In this document: positions 17,326 to 25,551 of the stretch, piece after piece
How positions within the stretch are numbered: the stretch's first letter is position 1
How the letters are laid out: each line of letters begins with the position of its first letter
DNA from: Bacteroidales bacterium
GTDB taxonomy: Bacteria; Bacteroidota; Bacteroidia; Bacteroidales; UBA932
Assembly: GCA_009777095.1 (NCBI GenBank)
Contig: WRMN01000003.1
Coordinates: 1-64,000 of the forward strand
DNA: 64,000 bases
Reading direction: 5' to 3'
Position numbers and translations under genes: made by a program
The notes under the pieces: generated by a model
Told to the model about the DNA's origin: nothing
The model's database searches: none
The model's input: only the letters and a program-made list of their open reading frames with translations

Positions 17326-17484
17326 AAATTAAGATTTATAACTTATTTAAGGCGCAATTTACGAAATTTTTAAGAAAAAACCAAAAAAAACATTAAGAAA
17401 TTGTTTAAATGTAATTTCTATTTACCTGAATATCTTGATGCCTAAGTTTGCGTACAAATTTTCACCCTGTACTTAAACTTTAAA

Positions 17485-17703
17485 CTATTCTACATCTACA
17501 ATATCTATAAGTCTGACATTTAATGCGGTACATATTTTTAGCAAAGTGTCAATGGTTAGGTTGCTTCTTCCGGCTTCAATCCTGCTCATATTGGATTTTT
17601 CGAAATTGCAAGCAGCGGCCAAATCCTGTTGGGGAATGTGTTGATTCACTCTTATTTCTTTGATTTTCAACCCTATTTTTATAAGAGCCGCTTCCTTTTT
17701 CAC
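17485..17703 (-). CDS. XRE-family transcriptional regulator of the Hsp70/kinase island
   Basis: 72 residues, a single Cro/C1-type helix-turn-helix: IGLKIKEIRVNQHIPQQDLA, then CNFEKSNMSRIEAGRSNLTI and DTLLKICTALNVRL. It starts with GTG at 17703. It has no sensor domain, so it acts as a simple repressor or activator. It is divergent from the five-gene operon beginning at 17834. The gap holds two TTATC-N6-GATAA sites, one next to its own start, so it probably represses both itself and the operon. Confidence 0.85.
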   Translation of the reverse strand: MKKEAALIKIGLKIKEIRVNQHIPQQDLAAACNFEKSNMSRIEAGRSNLTIDTLLKICTALNVRLIDIVDVE

Positions 17704-17714
17704 AATTTTTTATG

Positions 17715-17730
17715 TTATCATTTGTGATAA
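17715..17730. promoter_or_regulatory. Operator 1 for the XRE regulator
   Basis: TTATC-N6-GATAA, within a 7-bp inverted repeat GTTATCA/TGATAAC (17714-17731). It contains the TTTG (17721-17724) that serves as the -33 element of the operon promoter, so binding here would block RNA polymerase. It is 12 bases from the XRE start codon, allowing autoregulation. Confidence 0.6.
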
Positions 17731-17752
17731 CAAAGAAAAGGTTTTATCTTTG
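17721..17752 (+). promoter_or_regulatory. Promoter of the Hsp70/kinase operon
   Basis: The -33 element TTTG (17721-17724) and the -7 element TATCTTTG (17745-17752) are separated by 20 bp, an ideal Bacteroidota promoter. Operator sites overlap its upstream element and lie just downstream of its predicted start site. Confidence 0.65.
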
Positions 17753-17759
17753 CTATTGG

Positions 17760-17775
17760 TTATCATATAAGATAA
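17760..17775. promoter_or_regulatory. Operator 2 for the XRE regulator
   Basis: A second TTATC-N6-GATAA, 45 bp (about four helical turns) downstream of the first. It covers the region just after the predicted transcription start. Two identical half-site patterns around one promoter strongly suggest cooperative repression. Confidence 0.58.
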
Positions 17776-17833
17776 TTGCAAATTTTAAACCAAAGGAATA
17801 GGTAAAACGGAAGAAATGTTATAATAGTGATTT

Positions 17834-19555
17834 ATGAACCCGATTAAAAATAATCCTTACCGCACACTTGGACTGCTTGCAGGGGCAAGTGCAAAAGAAA
17901 TCATCCGACAAACAAATCGTCTGCAAAAAATTATTGCTACCGGGCAAAAGCCACCAACAGACGATTTTAGTTTTCCTGCACTTGGAAATTTGAAACGAAC
18001 AACAGAGAGTATTGAAGAAACCATTGCAAAACTCAACCTCGACCGCGACAAAATGAATGCCGCTCTTTTTTGGTTTTGGAACGGAAATCCCATAACTGAC
18101 GAAGTGGCTTTTGAGGCATTGAAAGAGGGCGATATTGATAAGGCCTACCAAATTTGGGATAAATTAATTGTGGAAACCAAAGAAGACGGCAAACGATTTT
18201 GGCGACAGGTAACAGAAAAAAATTGCTCGGCTTTTCACAACTGTTTTGTTCTTGAAATGTTACGAGAGAACGGAAACAAACACACAGCGATTGTAGCAAA
18301 TCTTTATTTTTTAGAAAGCGAGTTTTCCCAAAAATTTATATCAACGATTGCGGACAAGATATACAGAACAAATTCAAAAGAGTTACAAATCAATTTTTTG
18401 AGTGAAATTTTACAGGAAACGGTACAAATACATACAAATCTAACATTAAGCAAATTTGTATCAATTCTCAACAATATAGATTTTATTGCCAAAGTCGATT
18501 TTTTCAAAAGCATTTCTCAAAAATTTGCAAATAATATTTCAGCACAAATAGAAACTTCAAAAAGGAAACGCACAACCAACAAAGCCAACGCTGCAAAAAC
18601 AGGCGAAGAATTGTATCAACAGGCAAAAAATGACTTGGAGCAATTGAAGTCTATCGTTGGTGTGCAGGATTTTACATTTTCTAATATTGCGGATAAAGCG
18701 GCAAACGAGATTTTGCAATGCGGAGTAGATTATTTTTTGCATTATCGTGACACAAATATCGACCCAAGTACCGTTTCTATGGCGTTATTCAAAAAAGCAA
18801 AATTAATTGTTGTTGGAAATCTACATAAACAAAGAATAGAAGAAAATATTGAAAATTTACAGGAATGGATAGACGATAAACCCAAAAGAGAAAGAGAGAA
18901 TAGAATTGCGGTTGATTTACAATTTATCACCAGCAAACTTGAAAGGTTTCAAAGTTCTTCCGATACTATTTTTAATGCCAAAGACCTTGCAGTTTCCTGT
19001 AAACCAAAATTAGATAATGTAAAAACTATTTTAGGTGCTTATGACGATTTATATTTGAAACTTTCAAGTGCCGTTGTCGGCAATACGCAGGGGATGTTGG
19101 TGTCTGTCGTAAATACAGCACAGGAAAATCTTAAAGTACAGATGTATATTAATGGTACTACTGCATTGAATTCGCTAAAAACTATAATTCAAGAGGCATT
19201 GGAAGTTATCAATTATTTAGGTTCTTTTGATATGGATAGTGCTTTAAGAGCGAGATATGACTCAAACAAAAGTACCTTACAAGGAATTTCAAATCAAGTA
19301 AATGCACTAACACAACCTACTAGTAGTGGAGGTTGTTATATTGCAACAATGGCTTATGGCAGTTATGAACACCCACAAGTAATGATTTTACGGCAATTCA
19401 GAGATGATGTGTTAGATAAGTCTGTACTTGGAAGGTGGTTTATCAAATTCTATTATCATTATTCACCCAAATTGGTGGAAGCACTTAAAGACAAACAATT
19501 CATAAATAAATCAATTCGCAATATGTTAAATCAATTTATAAAAGTAATAAAATGA
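17834..19555 (+). CDS. J-like domain protein with C-terminal CFI-box
   Basis: 573 residues. The N-terminus (NPYRTLGLLAGASAKEIIRQTNRLQ, residues 7-31) has the YxxLGl...A...EI pattern of a J domain, but no HPD tripeptide follows, so it is a divergent J-like domain at best. The middle is a long helical region with tryptophan-rich and coiled-coil parts. The last 77 residues (from about 497) are a CFI-box C-terminal domain: GGCYIATMAYGSYEHPQV, LRQFRDDVL and GRWFIKFYYHYSPKL. This domain often ends proteins linked to chaperones. First gene of the operon; it probably works with the Hsp70 encoded two genes later. AT-rich codon use differs from the flanking genes. Confidence 0.72.
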   Translation: MNPIKNNPYRTLGLLAGASAKEIIRQTNRLQKIIATGQKPPTDDFSFPALGNLKRTTESIEETIAKLNLDRDKMNAALFWFWNGNPITDEVAFEALKEGDIDKAYQIWDKLIVETKEDGKRFWRQVTEKNCSAFHNCFVLEMLRENGNKHTAIVANLYFLESEFSQKFISTIADKIYRTNSKELQINFLSEILQETVQIHTNLTLSKFVSILNNIDFIAKVDFFKSISQKFANNISAQIETSKRKRTTNKANAAKTGEELYQQAKNDLEQLKSIVGVQDFTFSNIADKAANEILQCGVDYFLHYRDTNIDPSTVSMALFKKAKLIVVGNLHKQRIEENIENLQEWIDDKPKRERENRIAVDLQFITSKLERFQSSSDTIFNAKDLAVSCKPKLDNVKTILGAYDDLYLKLSSAVVGNTQGMLVSVVNTAQENLKVQMYINGTTALNSLKTIIQEALEVINYLGSFDMDSALRARYDSNKSTLQGISNQVNALTQPTSSGGCYIATMAYGSYEHPQVMILRQFRDDVLDKSVLGRWFIKFYYHYSPKLVEALKDKQFINKSIRNMLNQFIKVIK

Positions 19556-20418
19556 AGAAGACAATCATTTTTCCAATTCTAATGCTTTTTTCATTAATAG
19601 CATTTTCGCAAACGTCCGACAGCCTCGCTTTTGTGCAACTGCAACAAAACGTAGAACAATTACAAACCGAGTTGAGAAATCAAAAATCCGATTTTTCAAA
19701 ACAAATATCAGCTGCCAATAGCGAAATCGACAGCTTGAAAAAACAAGTTCAAAATAACAGCAATGCTATAAGTCAAACCACACAAGAGTTAGACGTAAAA
19801 ATAACAACGGCTGAAACTTCTACCAATCAAAAAATTTCGGAAGTAGGCGATTCGTTGAGCAAAACCACATTTTGGGTAATTATCGGTTTGCTTTTTGCCG
19901 TTATCATTTCGGGTATTGTGTATTTGCTACTTCGCAAAAAACAGCAAGCGGACAAAACGGATATTGTCGCACAGTTAAGCCAAACAAAACAAGCGATAGA
20001 CGAAAAATTGGTTAATGAATTTGCAAAAAACACAGAAGCGTTAGAGGCATTATCTAAAATCTCGAAACCAACTCAGAGCGTTGAGCCTGACCATTCGTTG
20101 GCATTAAAAGTAGCAGATGAAATCACTTTGATTGAAAGAAATATCAGCCATATGAATAAAGAAACAAAAGGATTAAAACCGTTAATTCGTGCTATTGAAA
20201 GGCTAAAAGACAATTTGTTTTCAAAAGGATACGAAATGCCCGAATTGCTCGAAAAGCCTTTTGTAGAAGGAATGAAAATAACAATAATCACTTCTATTCC
20301 CGATGAAAATTTAGAGAAAGGCAATGATGTTATTACTAAAATTATCAAGCCACAAGTTAATTTCAACGAAAAATTAATTCAGATGGCACAAGTAGAAGTT
20401 ACAGTCGGAATAAATTAA
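19552..20418 (+). CDS. Membrane-anchored coiled-coil protein with possible GrpE-like C-terminus
   Basis: 288 residues: signal peptide or anchor (1-19, ending FSQ), a coiled coil (about 25-100), a membrane helix (106-127, TFWVIIGLLFAVIISGIVYLLL) and a cytoplasmic part (130-288). The last 90 residues (LIRAIERLKDNLFSKGYEMP, then PQVNFNEKLIQMAQVEVTVG) recall the beta domain of GrpE in pattern, with the final IIKPQV...AQVEV strand similar to VLRPAMVKV. That would make it a membrane-bound nucleotide exchange factor for the Hsp70 encoded next, but the similarity is by eye only. It overlaps the previous stop by four bases (ATGA). Confidence 0.6.
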   Translation: MKKTIIFPILMLFSLIAFSQTSDSLAFVQLQQNVEQLQTELRNQKSDFSKQISAANSEIDSLKKQVQNNSNAISQTTQELDVKITTAETSTNQKISEVGDSLSKTTFWVIIGLLFAVIISGIVYLLLRKKQQADKTDIVAQLSQTKQAIDEKLVNEFAKNTEALEALSKISKPTQSVEPDHSLALKVADEITLIERNISHMNKETKGLKPLIRAIERLKDNLFSKGYEMPELLEKPFVEGMKITIITSIPDENLEKGNDVITKIIKPQVNFNEKLIQMAQVEVTVGIN

Positions 20419-20430
20419 AAAAATAAAAAT

Positions 20431-22944
20431 ATGCGAAATAAAATAGATTACGGAATTGACTTGGGAACGACTAATTCCGCCATTGCAAGAATGGAAAACG
20501 GTGTTCCAACAATTATTAAGGCAGATACTTCAAAGGATATACTTCCGTCTTGTGTGAGGTTTACTCCTAAAAAAACAGTAATGGTAGGAGAACTTGCCGT
20601 TAGCGCAATGCAAACCGAAATAACAAGAGCGTTAAACACTTTTGATAATGAGAAAATGAACTCATTTATTGAGTTTAAGCGTACAATGGGAACAACCCAC
20701 AAATACGAAAGTACAAATATGGGTCGAGAGTTTTCTTCGGAAGAACTTTCGGCAGAAATATTAAAAACGCTCAAATCCTTTGTTCAAGACGAAAATATTT
20801 CGTCTATTGTAATTACTGTTCCTGCCAAGTTTACCAATCAACAAACAGAGGCAACTATACAAGCGGCAAAATTAGCGGGGTTCAAACATATTAAATTGTT
20901 GCAAGAGCCTGTTGCCGCTGCTACCGCCTACGGATTAACAGCAAAAGACAAAGACAGTTATTGGCTCGTGTTCGACTTTGGTGGTGGTACTTTCGATGCC
21001 GCTATTATCAAATCAGAAAAAGGAATTTTGACCGTAAAAGATACTGACGGCGATAATTGGCTTGGCGGTAAAAATTTGGACGAGGCAATTGTTGACCAAA
21101 TCATTATTCCGTATCTGCAAGAAAATTACACACTTGATTTAAAAAATGAAAAGAAAAAACAAATATGGCGAGACGCATTAAAACGCTATGCTGAAACTGC
21201 AAAAAACCAAATATCATTCAAAGACAAATGGGCTATTTCAGTTGAATTAGGTATGTTGCGCAATGATGATAATGATGAGGAAATAGAGATTGATATAGAA
21301 GTTACAGGTAAAGATATTGCAGCCGTCTTATGCCCAATTTTCCAAAAAGCGATTGATATAACCAAAAATTTGTTGAAGCGAAACAACCTAAAAGGCTCGG
21401 ATTTAGGTGCATTAATTTTAGTCGGAGGTCCTACTCACTCGCCTATTCTTCGCCAAATGTTGAAAGAGCAAATTACAGAAAATGTGGATACTTCGGTTGA
21501 CCCAATGACTGTTGTTGCCAAAGGCGCGGCGTTGGTCGCTTCCACAATTTCTATTTCGGAGGAAGTGAAAGAGGAAAGTCGCGATAAAACTAAGTTGCAA
21601 TTAGAAATTGGTTACGAGGCTGCAACTGTTGAAATGGATACTATGGTCAATATCAAAATATTGAGGGACAAAACAGAAGGAACAATCCCCGAAAAAGTTT
21701 TTGCCGATGTGCTGCGTGGCGATGGTGCGTGGAATAGTGGCAAAAAACAAATTGGAAAACCAAAAGGAGACTTGATTGATGTACATTTGCTTGATGGCTC
21801 TAATATTTTTACAGTGAATGTATATGACGAACAAGGGAATAAATTAGAATGTCAGCCTAACCAATTTACAATCATAGGAGGTATTGAACCTCCTATTGAT
21901 ACATTATCTTATAACATAGGTATTGTAAAATGGTTTGATGAATATGAAGAAGACCGTTTTGCCTATGTAAAAGGTTTGGATAAAAATAAAAGATTGCCTG
22001 CAAGAGGTGCTCGTAACGGATTGAAAACTCGTTCAGAAATTCGTCCCGGAATGGCAAATGATATTATCAGCATACCTATTTACGAGGGCGATTACAACGC
22101 CGAAGGTACAAATCCCCTATTAAACAATTGGGTTGGCGAAGTAATTATTTCAGGAGAAAGTCTGCCAGCGTTATTGCCCACAGGCAGCGATGTGGACATT
22201 ACAATCAAGGTTGACAGTTCAAGACAAATGCAATTTTCAGCATACTTCCCGTTGATTGACCACACCGAAGAATTGAAAATACAAATCAAACAAACCGAGC
22301 CGCCAACAGAGGAAAAATTAAAACGAGATATTGCCGATGCTAAACGAACCGCAAAGCGAGTAAACGATACGGTAATTTTTGAGAAGTTGAAAGATTTTGA
22401 AAATCAGTTGGAAAACGAAAAGGGAAGTGCAGACGGGAAAATGAAAATTTTAGACAGTTTGCGCAAAGAACTTTTAAAATTGGACGAAGCCGACAAAGCA
22501 ACTCTTTTTCCGAAAATTGAGAAAGAATTGAAAGAAACGTTTTACGAGTTGGAAGATTTAGTCGAAAAAATCAAGCGAAACGGCGACACAAAGGATTTGA
22601 ATATGGGCAAAGTTGAAGCAACGCTTGCTGATATGAAGCAAAAAGTAGATGTCATTATTCGCGAGAAAAGTATAAAAGAGGCAAAGGAGTTGATAAAGGA
22701 AATTGGCGGATTGGATTTTGAACTTCGCAATGCCGTTACAGGAAATGCAATGGACTTGCAATTTTTGCAAGATTTTAATCAAAATTTCAATTCATTCCAT
22801 TGGATAAATCCGACAAAAGCACGCCAACTTATCAACCAAGCAATGCAACAGGTAGCAAATGGAAATAAAAATATCCGTCCGCTTTTGGTGGAGATTGTGC
22901 AACTTTTGCCGAGAGATGAACAAGCGGGTGATACTTTGAGATAA
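20431..22944 (+). CDS. Large divergent Hsp70 family chaperone
   Basis: 837 residues, about 200 longer than DnaK. The ATPase domain is intact: phosphate loop 1 DYGIDLGTTNSAIARMENG (from residue 6), phosphate loop 2 FDFGGGTFDAAI (about 181-192), and the adenosine loop LILVGGPTHSPILRQML (328-344). The proline switch segment LLQEPVAAATAYGL is present. The substrate-binding half is diverged, with extra beta segments (about 390-630) and a long charged helical tail (about 630-760). It lacks the EEVD-like or C-terminal DnaK end. It should hydrolyse ATP to fold, disaggregate or recruit clients with the neighbouring J-like and kinase-AAA proteins. Confidence 0.9.
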   Translation: MRNKIDYGIDLGTTNSAIARMENGVPTIIKADTSKDILPSCVRFTPKKTVMVGELAVSAMQTEITRALNTFDNEKMNSFIEFKRTMGTTHKYESTNMGREFSSEELSAEILKTLKSFVQDENISSIVITVPAKFTNQQTEATIQAAKLAGFKHIKLLQEPVAAATAYGLTAKDKDSYWLVFDFGGGTFDAAIIKSEKGILTVKDTDGDNWLGGKNLDEAIVDQIIIPYLQENYTLDLKNEKKKQIWRDALKRYAETAKNQISFKDKWAISVELGMLRNDDNDEEIEIDIEVTGKDIAAVLCPIFQKAIDITKNLLKRNNLKGSDLGALILVGGPTHSPILRQMLKEQITENVDTSVDPMTVVAKGAALVASTISISEEVKEESRDKTKLQLEIGYEAATVEMDTMVNIKILRDKTEGTIPEKVFADVLRGDGAWNSGKKQIGKPKGDLIDVHLLDGSNIFTVNVYDEQGNKLECQPNQFTIIGGIEPPIDTLSYNIGIVKWFDEYEEDRFAYVKGLDKNKRLPARGARNGLKTRSEIRPGMANDIISIPIYEGDYNAEGTNPLLNNWVGEVIISGESLPALLPTGSDVDITIKVDSSRQMQFSAYFPLIDHTEELKIQIKQTEPPTEEKLKRDIADAKRTAKRVNDTVIFEKLKDFENQLENEKGSADGKMKILDSLRKELLKLDEADKATLFPKIEKELKETFYELEDLVEKIKRNGDTKDLNMGKVEATLADMKQKVDVIIREKSIKEAKELIKEIGGLDFELRNAVTGNAMDLQFLQDFNQNFNSFHWINPTKARQLINQAMQQVANGNKNIRPLLVEIVQLLPRDEQAGDTLR

Positions 22945-22945
22945 T

Positions 22946-24739
22946 ATGCAAACATTACAAAAAAATACAATTTTAGAAAAAAAATACACCGTTCTACTTT
23001 TCATAAAGAAAGGAGGCAATGCCGAAACCTATCGAGTGAAAGGCACGGACGGAAAACTGTATTTCCTAAAACTGTTCAATCCTGCCAAATTGCATCACAC
23101 GGCATTTGACAAAAACGGCAATTTGCTCGAAATTGAATTTTTGAAAAAAACGAAACACGAAAATATTGCTTCGTATAAAGACTGCGGCGAGGTAATTGTC
23201 GAAGGTAAAAAGTTTCTGTATTTGGTATTGAATTTCATTGCAGGCGAAACATTGGCGGAGCGAATGACACGCGAGCCGATTTCTACGGTTTACGACATTC
23301 GACAAATTCTTTCGGGAGTGTTGAATGGGTTACAATATTTACATTCATTGCCCGAACCGATTATTCACAACGAAATTACGCCACAAAACATTATGCTTGA
23401 TTTGTCGGGCGGCACGCCAAAAGCAAAAATTATTGATTTCGGCTACGCCCGCTCATTTTTGCAGTCGTCTAAAACATACAATCGTGAAGGGTTGAATTTA
23501 CATTTTGTATCCTCGGAATGTATTACGGCAGGTACATGTTCGCCGCAAAGCGATTTATTTTCTGTTGGTGCTGTAATGTATCAAATGTTGTTTGGCACCC
23601 AAGCGTGGAATGTTGCAATTTCAAACTATGAAACACAAATGTCGGGCGACACAGCCGTAATCGAAAAATTATTGCAACAGCGAGAAAAGCCCTTGCTATT
23701 TCCCAATGTTGCAGACAGAATTGTTGATTTTGACAATTTGGTTTTAAAAATAATCACAAAAGCACTGCAAACCGACACAGAAAAACGTTTCCAATCAGCA
23801 CAAGAATTTTTGCAAACATTAAACGGCGAAATAGAAATTGCCGATGCCGTAGGGGCGAACCTGCGTGTTCGCCTCGAACAAAAAACCGACAAACCAAAAA
23901 TGCAAAAGAAAAGTGGAGGTGGTTTTTCTGCCATTGCAGGAATGCAAGCGTTGAAAAATATGTTACAGACCGATGTGATAGACATTATTCGCCACCCCGA
24001 AGAATACAAAAAACACGGTTTGGGGCTGCCTAATGGAATGTTGCTTTATGGTCCTCCGGGTTGCGGAAAAACATTTTTTGCCGAACGATTTGCCGAAGAA
24101 ACAGATTATAATTTTCGTAAAATAATTGCTTCCGACCTTGCAAGTATTTATGTACACGGAACACAGGAAAAAATCGGAAAAATCTTTGACGAAGCAAGAC
24201 AAAACGCACCTGCAATCTTGTATTTTGATGAATTAGACGCGATGACACCCGACAGAGAAAACGCACAACATAGTTACGGCTCGGAAGTGAACGAATTTCT
24301 TTCACAATTAGACAATAGCGGCGATTCGGGAGTGTTTGTTATTGGCTCAACCAACAAACCGCAACTGATTGATAAAGCAATTTTACGAGCAGGACGATTA
24401 GAAAAGCATTTTTACGTTCCGCCACCCGATTTTGAGGCACGGCAAGCAATGTTTGAAATTTACCTAAAAAATCGTCCGCTTGACTTCGGTATTGACTACG
24501 AAAAGTTGGCAATTTTGACCGAAAACTATGTTTCGGGCGACATAAAACTGATTGTAGATGAATGTTCTCGCAAAGTCATTCGAGAAAAAACAAAACGAAT
24601 TACAATGGAAACATTGGAAATTGTCATTAAAAATCAACGTCCAACTATTTCGCTTGATATTCTTCAAAAATACGAAAAAATCAAAAACGAAATGGAAGGT
24701 AAAAAAGAAGAACGACGCAGAATCGGGTTTAAACCATAA
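22946..24739 (+). CDS. Protein kinase-like domain fused to AAA+ ATPase
   Basis: 597 residues. Residues 1-295 form a protein kinase fold with Lys42 (LYFLKLF) and DFG at 164-166. The catalytic loop reads HNEITPQNIM (141-150), so the HRD aspartate is Glu143; Asn148 is kept, and the glycine loop is poor (KKGGNAETYRV). It is either an atypical kinase or a pseudokinase. A linker leads to a classical AAA domain: Walker A GPPGCGKT (369-376), Walker B LYFDELD (D428, E429), sensor 1 Asn470, and arginine fingers RAGR (481-484). The AAA part resembles FtsH/Cdc48-type remodelers. One base separates it from the Hsp70 gene. It probably remodels or disassembles clients in response to a signal. Confidence 0.9.
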   Translation: MQTLQKNTILEKKYTVLLFIKKGGNAETYRVKGTDGKLYFLKLFNPAKLHHTAFDKNGNLLEIEFLKKTKHENIASYKDCGEVIVEGKKFLYLVLNFIAGETLAERMTREPISTVYDIRQILSGVLNGLQYLHSLPEPIIHNEITPQNIMLDLSGGTPKAKIIDFGYARSFLQSSKTYNREGLNLHFVSSECITAGTCSPQSDLFSVGAVMYQMLFGTQAWNVAISNYETQMSGDTAVIEKLLQQREKPLLFPNVADRIVDFDNLVLKIITKALQTDTEKRFQSAQEFLQTLNGEIEIADAVGANLRVRLEQKTDKPKMQKKSGGGFSAIAGMQALKNMLQTDVIDIIRHPEEYKKHGLGLPNGMLLYGPPGCGKTFFAERFAEETDYNFRKIIASDLASIYVHGTQEKIGKIFDEARQNAPAILYFDELDAMTPDRENAQHSYGSEVNEFLSQLDNSGDSGVFVIGSTNKPQLIDKAILRAGRLEKHFYVPPPDFEARQAMFEIYLKNRPLDFGIDYEKLAILTENYVSGDIKLIVDECSRKVIREKTKRITMETLEIVIKNQRPTISLDILQKYEKIKNEMEGKKEERRRIGFKP

Positions 24740-24766
24740 AGTATAAACATTTAAAATTCAAAAGAT

Positions 24767-25288
24767 ATGGATGTGCCAAACTTAAATAAATTACTTTTTC
24801 AGACAGCCTTTTGCTGTATGGCTTCTGACGGCGATATTGACAACAGAGAAGTTGCAAAAATCAAATCAATGTGTGAGAAATTACCTTTGTTCGAGAATAT
24901 TGATATTCAAGCAGAATTAAATCTTCTTGTTAGTAAAATCAATGTTGAAGGCAAAAAATTTATCACTGATTATTTTGAATTGCTGAAAAACACTTCGTTA
25001 CCGGAGGAGGAGAAATTAACCCTTCTTGATTTTGCCATTCAGACCATTTGGGCGGATGGAGAACTTAAATATCCGGAACTCAAGTTTTTCAAAAATATTC
25101 GTTATCGCTTAAAAGTTAGTGATGAAAAGATTTTGGAGCGTTTTGCCGATGTTCCCGATATTGAATTGTTTTTAGAACAAGACATTGTAACCGAATCGTT
25201 TTTTGACAAAATATTAAGTCAATATTTTGAAACGGTAGAATTACCACAATTTGAACTTATTTGTATTGATACGACAAAAAAAGAATAA
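24767..25288 (+). CDS. TerB-like protein
   Basis: 173 residues, all helical. It carries the duplicated acidic motif of TerB-like proteins: MASDGDIDNREV (residues 18-29) and IWADGELKYPELKFF (94-108). In TerB these residues bind metal. TerB-type proteins occur in stress, tellurite-resistance and phage-defence gene sets that also contain kinases and vWA or AAA proteins. It closes the island operon, 27 bases after the kinase-AAA gene. Confidence 0.78.
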   Translation: MDVPNLNKLLFQTAFCCMASDGDIDNREVAKIKSMCEKLPLFENIDIQAELNLLVSKINVEGKKFITDYFELLKNTSLPEEEKLTLLDFAIQTIWADGELKYPELKFFKNIRYRLKVSDEKILERFADVPDIELFLEQDIVTESFFDKILSQYFETVELPQFELICIDTTKKE

Positions 25289-25313
25289 GATTGTAATTTT
25301 TTACCCCTAAAAT

Positions 25314-25344
25314 TTTGAACTTTAAACTTTTTTTCCTACCTTTG
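25314..25344 (+). promoter_or_regulatory. Promoter of the B12 uptake operon
   Basis: TTTG at 25314-25317 and TACCTTTG at 25337-25344 with a 19-bp spacer. It directly precedes the cobalamin riboswitch. Confidence 0.6.
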
Positions 25345-25356
25345 TAACATTATATA

Positions 25357-25510
25357 TCAGTGTAGGGAATCTCGTGCAAATCGAGAACAGTACCCGCTGC
25401 TGTAACTCTGTCCGCCTGTGGGCGGATGTTCGCCACAGCCACTGTCCGTCAATCGGCGGATGGGAAGGTTTTGAACGAAAAAGAGAAGTCAGAAAACCTG
25501 CTGCTATATA
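25357..25510 (+). ncRNA. Cobalamin riboswitch
   Basis: The conserved elements appear in order: GGGAAtctcGTGcAAaTCgagaAC with GtaCCCGCtgCTGTAA, then the B12 box GCCACTGTC at about 25437-25446, GGGAAGG (from 25461), and AAGTCAGAAAACCTGC (from 25486). The variable stem has a strong hairpin (CCGCCTGTGGGCGG). It precedes the TonB-dependent receptor, so vitamin B12 should repress receptor production. Confidence 0.93.
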
Positions 25511-25551
25511 AAGTAAAATATTAATCGAAAACTTTCGGGAGAAAAAGTACG

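Follow-up and report, generated by a model that had tools for sequence, protein, structure and literature searches.

A compact five-gene operon in a Bacteroidales genome very probably encodes a private KJE-like chaperone machine together with a Cdc48-type unfoldase, judging from profile matches and structure models. Its genes, B to F, lie on the plus strand of a 64,000-nucleotide stretch of contig WRMN01000003.1, referred to below as the window. The assignment follows from a GrpE-like C, an Hsp70 (D) that keeps its SBD, a J-like B and a Cdc48-like E, and in hhalign comparisons B, C and D each scored higher with the corresponding KJE protein than in controls made by shuffling, reversal or cross-pairing. 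Our broader reading, to which we give a probability of about 0.5, is that the operon specifies a private, membrane-tethered machine for Hsp70-based remodelling, transferred between genomes as a unit and most likely engaged in conflict with phages or other mobile DNA. The role in phage conflict, itself about an even bet, is argued from the distribution of the operon and from its neighbours.

Layout and probable regulation of the operon

Six open reading frames were found where the preliminary description had placed them, one on the minus strand (xre) and five on the plus strand. The operon, its domains and the start of the next transcription unit are as follows:

17834-25288, plus strand: five-gene operon B-C-D-E-F (ORF coordinates)
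17834..19555, plus strand: gene B, 573 aa, with a J-like N-terminus, a long helical solenoid and a CFI-box C-terminus
17834..18073, plus strand: J-like domain of B (NPYRxLG...), no HPD (hhalign to J domains)
19334-19537, plus strand: CFI-box C-terminus of B (CFI-box-CTERM match, 1.2e-24)
19552..20418, plus strand: gene C, 288 aa (hydropathy, AlphaFold2 model, Foldseek, hhalign)
19873..19929, plus strand: predicted transmembrane (TM) helix of C, residues 108-126 (hydropathy 2.69)
20095..20409, plus strand: GrpE-like helices and beta domain of C, residues 182-286 (Foldseek, hhalign)
20431..22944, plus strand: gene D, 837-aa Hsp70 (HSP70 match, 1.1e-71)
20452-21618, plus strand: NBD of D (HSP70 family match, residues 8-396 only)
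about 21883-22350, plus strand: SBD-beta-like domain of D (hhalign to DnaK SBD profiles)
22946..24739, plus strand: gene E, 597 aa, predicted pseudokinase fused to a Cdc48-like AAA+ (Pkinase 1.6e-33, AAA 6.2e-33)
23366..23374, plus strand: HNE replacing the catalytic HRD in E
23924..24619, plus strand: AAA+ module of E, Walker A GPPGCGKT, closest to Cdc48/p97 D2
24767..25288, plus strand: gene F, 173 aa, TerB-like (TerB 4.4e-5, 24.2 bits vs a cut-off of 24.4)
25314: Bacteroides-type promoter at the start of the next transcription unit, upstream of the riboswitch
25341-25519: cobalamin riboswitch ahead of a TonB-receptor gene, directly 3' of the operon

The distances between consecutive genes are -4, 12, 1 and 27 bases, the 4-base overlap being that of B and C, so the five co-directional genes are as tightly packed as had been claimed. 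Since the next unit has its own promoter (25314) and riboswitch, the operon ends at F. The nadE and aminotransferase genes flank the operon on one side and the TonB-receptor gene behind the cobalamin riboswitch on the other, which agrees with the earlier view that the island parts nadE-aminotransferase from B12 genes. It is also more AT-rich than its surroundings, as proposed, with GC of 0.32-0.39 in its genes vs 0.41-0.47 in the neighbours and GC3 of 0.29-0.37 vs 0.38-0.50. None of B to F encodes a nuclease, toxin or other killing effector.

Between xre and B is a gap of 130 bases that carries candidate regulatory sites:

17485..17703, minus strand: xre, divergent 72-aa HTH regulator (HTH_26/HTH_3 matches)
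17714..17731, no strand assigned: perfect palindrome GTTATCA-N4-TGATAAC (GTTATCATTTGTGATAAC), probable operator, sole exact match in the 64 kb
17721..17752, plus strand: Bacteroides-type promoter TTTG-N20-TATCTTTG (pattern match)
17759..17776, no strand assigned: second operator-like palindrome, 2 mismatches, next best in the 64 kb and in the same gap

We take TTTG-N20-TATCTTTG to be the Bacteroides promoter form, and sites of this form number 11 in the window vs 1.6 expected. The -33 TTTG sits at the centre of the first palindrome, and the second palindrome lies 45 bases beyond the first, 3' of the -7 box. Because the palindromes flank and overlap the promoter, repression by xre is plausible here, the two putative operators being its probable sites of action in this genome. 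No xre homologue adjoins any other copy of the operon, so xre is best regarded as a local regulator outside the conserved module, and its candidacy as a conserved operon part is ruled out. The set had been called self-contained and equipped with its own repressor. The first holds for the chaperone cycle, in that J-like, Hsp70 and GrpE-like proteins are all encoded in the operon, and the second, at this copy only, in that xre faces two operator-like palindromes.

Domain evidence for the chaperones, the unfoldase and the TerB-like protein

The product of gene C starts with a signal-like N-terminus, followed by a predicted periplasmic coiled coil, a single TM helix and a cytoplasmic part that is GrpE-like. 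With the AlphaFold2 model of C (mean pLDDT 81.6, pTM 0.46) as query, Foldseek placed GrpE structures of the PDB at positions 1-13 (E 3e-6 to 0.02), and all non-GrpE matches lay above E 0.2. The hhalign score of C against GrpE was 32.8, with controls at 20.9 or less. TM-scores to GrpE structures were low and the rmsd high despite the good E-values, which we think is caused by a differing angle of the long helices; for that reason the GrpE claim is carried by the E-values and the profile match. The Pfam GrpE model did not match C, and PDB profile searches with the tail of C, the N-terminus of B and the C-terminus of D returned no significant match. Sequence and model evidence identify C as a GrpE homologue that has a predicted TM helix. 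The preliminary description had seen a membrane coiled-coil protein with a possibly GrpE-like tail, and the TM helix together with the GrpE fold and profile matches bears this out. A membrane-fixed GrpE was not found described in the open-access literature searched, and it would mean that Hsp70 nucleotide exchange can be tied to a place or signal at the envelope.

A GrpE-like head domain shared with the C-terminus of C also occurs in giant phage proteins of 2478 to at least 4126 aa:

L265:8890-9222: GrpE-like head in a giant phage protein, 80 bits
L266, residues 1528-1599 of a 2478-aa ORF: GrpE-like head in a giant phage protein, 73 bits
L267, residues 469-538 of a 2552-aa ORF: GrpE-like head in a giant phage protein, 43 bits

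This head is possibly a polyvalent-protein domain, or else a mimic or decoy of the Hsp70 partner.

The Hsp70 encoded by D consists of an NBD, an insert of ~95 aa with no match, an SBD-beta-like domain and a long helical C-terminus. Its ATPase motifs (GIDLGTTN, DFGGGTFD and GGPT) are kept in 33 homologues, in accord with the earlier claim of an 837-residue Hsp70 in which these motifs are intact. The SBD scored 27.5-29.7 against DnaK by hhalign over 129-190 columns (controls 20.5 or less), and residues 479-645 scored 27.5 against DnaK SBD profiles (controls 20.0 or less). By these profile comparisons the substrate-binding region is homologous to the DnaK SBD but divergent, and D as a whole scores 233 bits vs a DnaK cut-off of 823. 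At four loci (L037, L039, L048 and L064) a second Hsp70-like gene of ~690 aa stands between D and E, and that of L037 has no DFGGGTFD.

The J-like region of B scored 23.3 against J domains by hhalign, with controls at 12.1 or less. Foldseek with the whole B model gave generic helical-repeat matches only, all with E above 0.001, which leaves hhalign as the basis of the J-like claim. The HPD motif is missing, and replaced, in 29 of 29 aligned B rows. In the B of the window the CFI-box tail reaches 85.8 bits, but across the family this tail is variable. Thus the J-like/CFI-box protein proposed earlier is recognisable by its J-like profile match and its CFI-box, but it lacks HPD and its tail is variable. 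The B genes of L021 and L022 begin with an N-terminus of the form NPYRFLGIYSNS..., J-like and without HPD, a form that is common in unrelated Bacteroides proteins.

Gene E had been read as a kinase-AAA+ fusion, and both folds are present, but the kinase motifs point to a pseudokinase. At the HRD position, 39 of 41 homologues have HNE and one has HNA, one being unread by the pattern; the glycine-rich loop is replaced by NAETYRV in nearly all homologues, with Lys and DFG retained. An HRD together with a canonical GxGxxG loop occurs in the outlier L073 only. The kinase domain is accordingly a predicted pseudokinase. The AAA+ part, a single module with no N domain, has intact Walker A/B, sensor 1 and RxGR regions and is, by its motifs, an active-looking domain of Cdc48 type.

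The fifth gene, F, had been called TerB-like; its match falls just under the Pfam cut-off, a PDB comparison gave no clear hit among TerB structures, and the gene was not found in some copies. TerB-like proteins are classically linked to stress. Several loci lack a detectable F although the flank is available, so F is not essential everywhere, and in L037 it is fused to E. A variable effector slot 3' of E where F is missing was considered and rejected, the genes there being mostly housekeeping.

Distribution, neighbourhoods and mobile copies

When E was used to scan 84,980 species genomes, 41 loci came back, nearly all from Bacteroidota; the labels outside that phylum were one Ignavibacteriae record and one Ectomicrobium record. 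About 45 further copies of the operon were found, and tens of genomes share the gene order B-C-D-E-F, so the operon is not a chance arrangement. In the combined tally all five genes are together at 25 loci and B to E at 7, most of the others ending at contig ends. The five genes proposed as one set therefore do co-occur, in conserved order. When the phylum was sampled evenly, E was present in 6 of 395 Bacteroidota genomes (~1.5%), three of the six matches being 35-42% identical; these genomes also hold the neighbour genes, rearranged in L073. The gene histories are partly concordant (Spearman 0.13-0.82, lowest for D-F). A sister species (G001, about 80% complete) gave no E match, and the homology that it shares with the window breaks off at 17389 and starts again at 25310, points at which its contigs end.

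Defence genes or mobility genes accompany a number of copies. Plasmid pHALHY02 carries the five genes with SIR2/nSTAND1/WD40 genes on one side and a BREX cluster on the other; when plasmids and phages were searched for the wider family, all further matches were generic AAA+ ones. HsdR is near the L036 copy, together with a McrB-like gene, it adjoins B in L049, and a homologue occurs in L063. A NACHT-FGE protein gene directly precedes B in L074, and relaxase and integrase genes are found at L044, L045, L034 and L063. Among flanking proteins scanned with PADLOC (sets of 134 and 89), R-M families recur, vs 0 in a control of 126 proteins taken from 15-16 random regions; since this control set is small and not genome-matched, the R-M neighbourhood counts as support rather than proof. 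Many copies, that of the window included, reside among housekeeping genes; around the window copy no element boundaries are visible, and the majority sit on chromosomal contigs where no phage structural genes can be seen. Several copies thus have a link to defence, but many are in housekeeping surroundings.

The genes B-C-D-E were also found on three viral-database contigs (L185, L186 and L187), of which the last has its copy adjoining a Baseplate_J gene of a phage tail region. On these contigs C is a short GrpE-like protein of 128-130 aa with no TM part, and the kinase region of E is unrecognisable in L186 and L187. Because the viral-contig C has no TM part, the membrane anchor appears, from these sequences, to be specific to the Bacteroidota branch of a wider family.

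Accessory genes were seen as well. A DUF6804 small membrane protein is encoded after F or between D and E at 20 loci among L026-L063, a secreted SH3_3 protein gene precedes B at 8 loci, and in L048, L051 and L052 inserted KilA-N genes separate D from E.

Possible roles and relation to known systems

Since the operon encodes no effector enzyme, it is likely to act by remodelling or trapping proteins. The periplasmic coiled coil of C would sense or anchor at the envelope and set nucleotide exchange on D there, and B, doing without classical HPD stimulation, may scaffold or present clients. The pseudokinase of E could serve in binding or regulation and pass clients on to the AAA+ pore, with F as a possible adaptor. 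As a result, incoming phage proteins or assemblies would be unfolded or trapped locally at the inner membrane. More tentatively, the operon may represent a new, nuclease- and toxin-free class of anti-phage system, in which the TM GrpE turns an envelope event of phage entry into exchange on a dedicated Hsp70, the Hsp70 and a pseudokinase-gated Cdc48-like unfoldase dismantle phage proteins that are entering or being assembled, and the GrpE-like heads of giant phages (L265-L267) could be decoys or inhibitors. Should a defence role be true, the system would remodel proteins rather than cut nucleic acid or kill the cell, and bacteria would be found to pair an Hsp70 with a Cdc48-like unfoldase. The stress-response or anti-phage device first suggested is, on the latter side, in keeping with the defence genes beside several copies, its defensive function being argued from context.

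No named system had been known for this gene set, and none was matched in the open-access literature (preprints excluded) or in PADLOC; nor did that literature yield a description of the CFI-box, DUF6804 or the combined features. In PADLOC-DB 2.0, B, D and F had no match, E matched by its kinase or AAA domain only, and C gave a weak coiled-coil match only. Three described systems come closest. The GTPase-centric conflict systems (eLife 52696, PMC7159879) are predicted to use HSP70, GrpE and DnaJ-fused proteins, one theme including a kinase. They are built on GAP1-N domains and DO-GTPases, which the operon lacks, a family search having found no GTPase domain among B to F; the text consulted mentions neither a TM GrpE nor a Cdc48-like AAA+, both of which the operon has. 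CoCoNuT type III-A (eLife 94800, PMC11090510) includes Hsp70-like units, SpoVK/Cdc48-like extensions and TerY-P kinases, and resembles the operon in its Hsp70-like unit, its p97/CDC48-like AAA+ and its type I RM and BREX neighbours. However, CoCoNuT needs a McrB-like GTPase, a McrC homologue and coiled-coil nuclease proteins, all three missing from the operon: no McrB-like or McrC domain was found in B to F, and McrB-like or McrC-like neighbours occur only at L036 and L184. Its Hsp70 has degenerate Walker-like motifs, whereas D is intact, and its TerY is a vWA protein, not a TerB. Finally, bNACHT25 needs DnaJ to sense phage (PMC12169576) and so offers a precedent for a chaperone partner in phage sensing, but it combines a host DnaJ with a NACHT effector, and the operon is unrelated.

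The main rival to phage conflict, a less probable reading with perhaps half its weight, is an envelope proteostasis or stress-survival module that is horizontally shared and not anti-phage, whose tethered GrpE would recruit Hsp70 and the Cdc48-like AAA+ to damaged inner-membrane proteins for extraction or refolding. The TM anchor and signal-like N-terminus of C, the accessory genes that repeatedly encode secreted SH3 and DUF6804 proteins, the many copies in housekeeping surroundings and the stress link of TerB-like proteins would all suit such a module. The patchy distribution, the neighbouring defence genes, the phage-borne copies and the absence of the TM anchor from the wider family speak against it. 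It is rather unlikely that the module serves its carrier element, through superinfection exclusion or host takeover by prophages or plasmids, and not the cell: copies on viral-database contigs (one beside a baseplate J gene), the plasmid copy and those adjoining relaxases and integrases would fit, but most copies are chromosomal without visible phage structural genes and no element boundaries surround the window copy.

Compared with canonical KJE, the operon is alike in having an Hsp70 with NBD and SBD, a J-like partner and an exchange factor of GrpE fold. It differs in the J-like domain without HPD, the GrpE linked to a TM helix and a periplasmic coiled coil, the ~95-aa insert of the Hsp70, the pseudokinase-Cdc48-like neighbour and its mobile, rare occurrence. 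An ordinary duplicated heat-shock (dnaK-dnaJ-grpE) operon, although all three KJE components are represented, is very improbable and largely refuted already by anatomy: HPD is lost, GrpE is membrane-anchored, the Hsp70 has an insert and falls far below the DnaK cut-off, a Cdc48-like gene adjoins, and the host genome carries separate DnaK, DnaJ and GrpE of its own.

The operon also hints at what the CFI-box, DUF6804 and the NPYR J-like domain may do. Culturable strains of Flavobacterium, Chryseobacterium, Pedobacter and Chitinophaga carry it, making a direct test possible.
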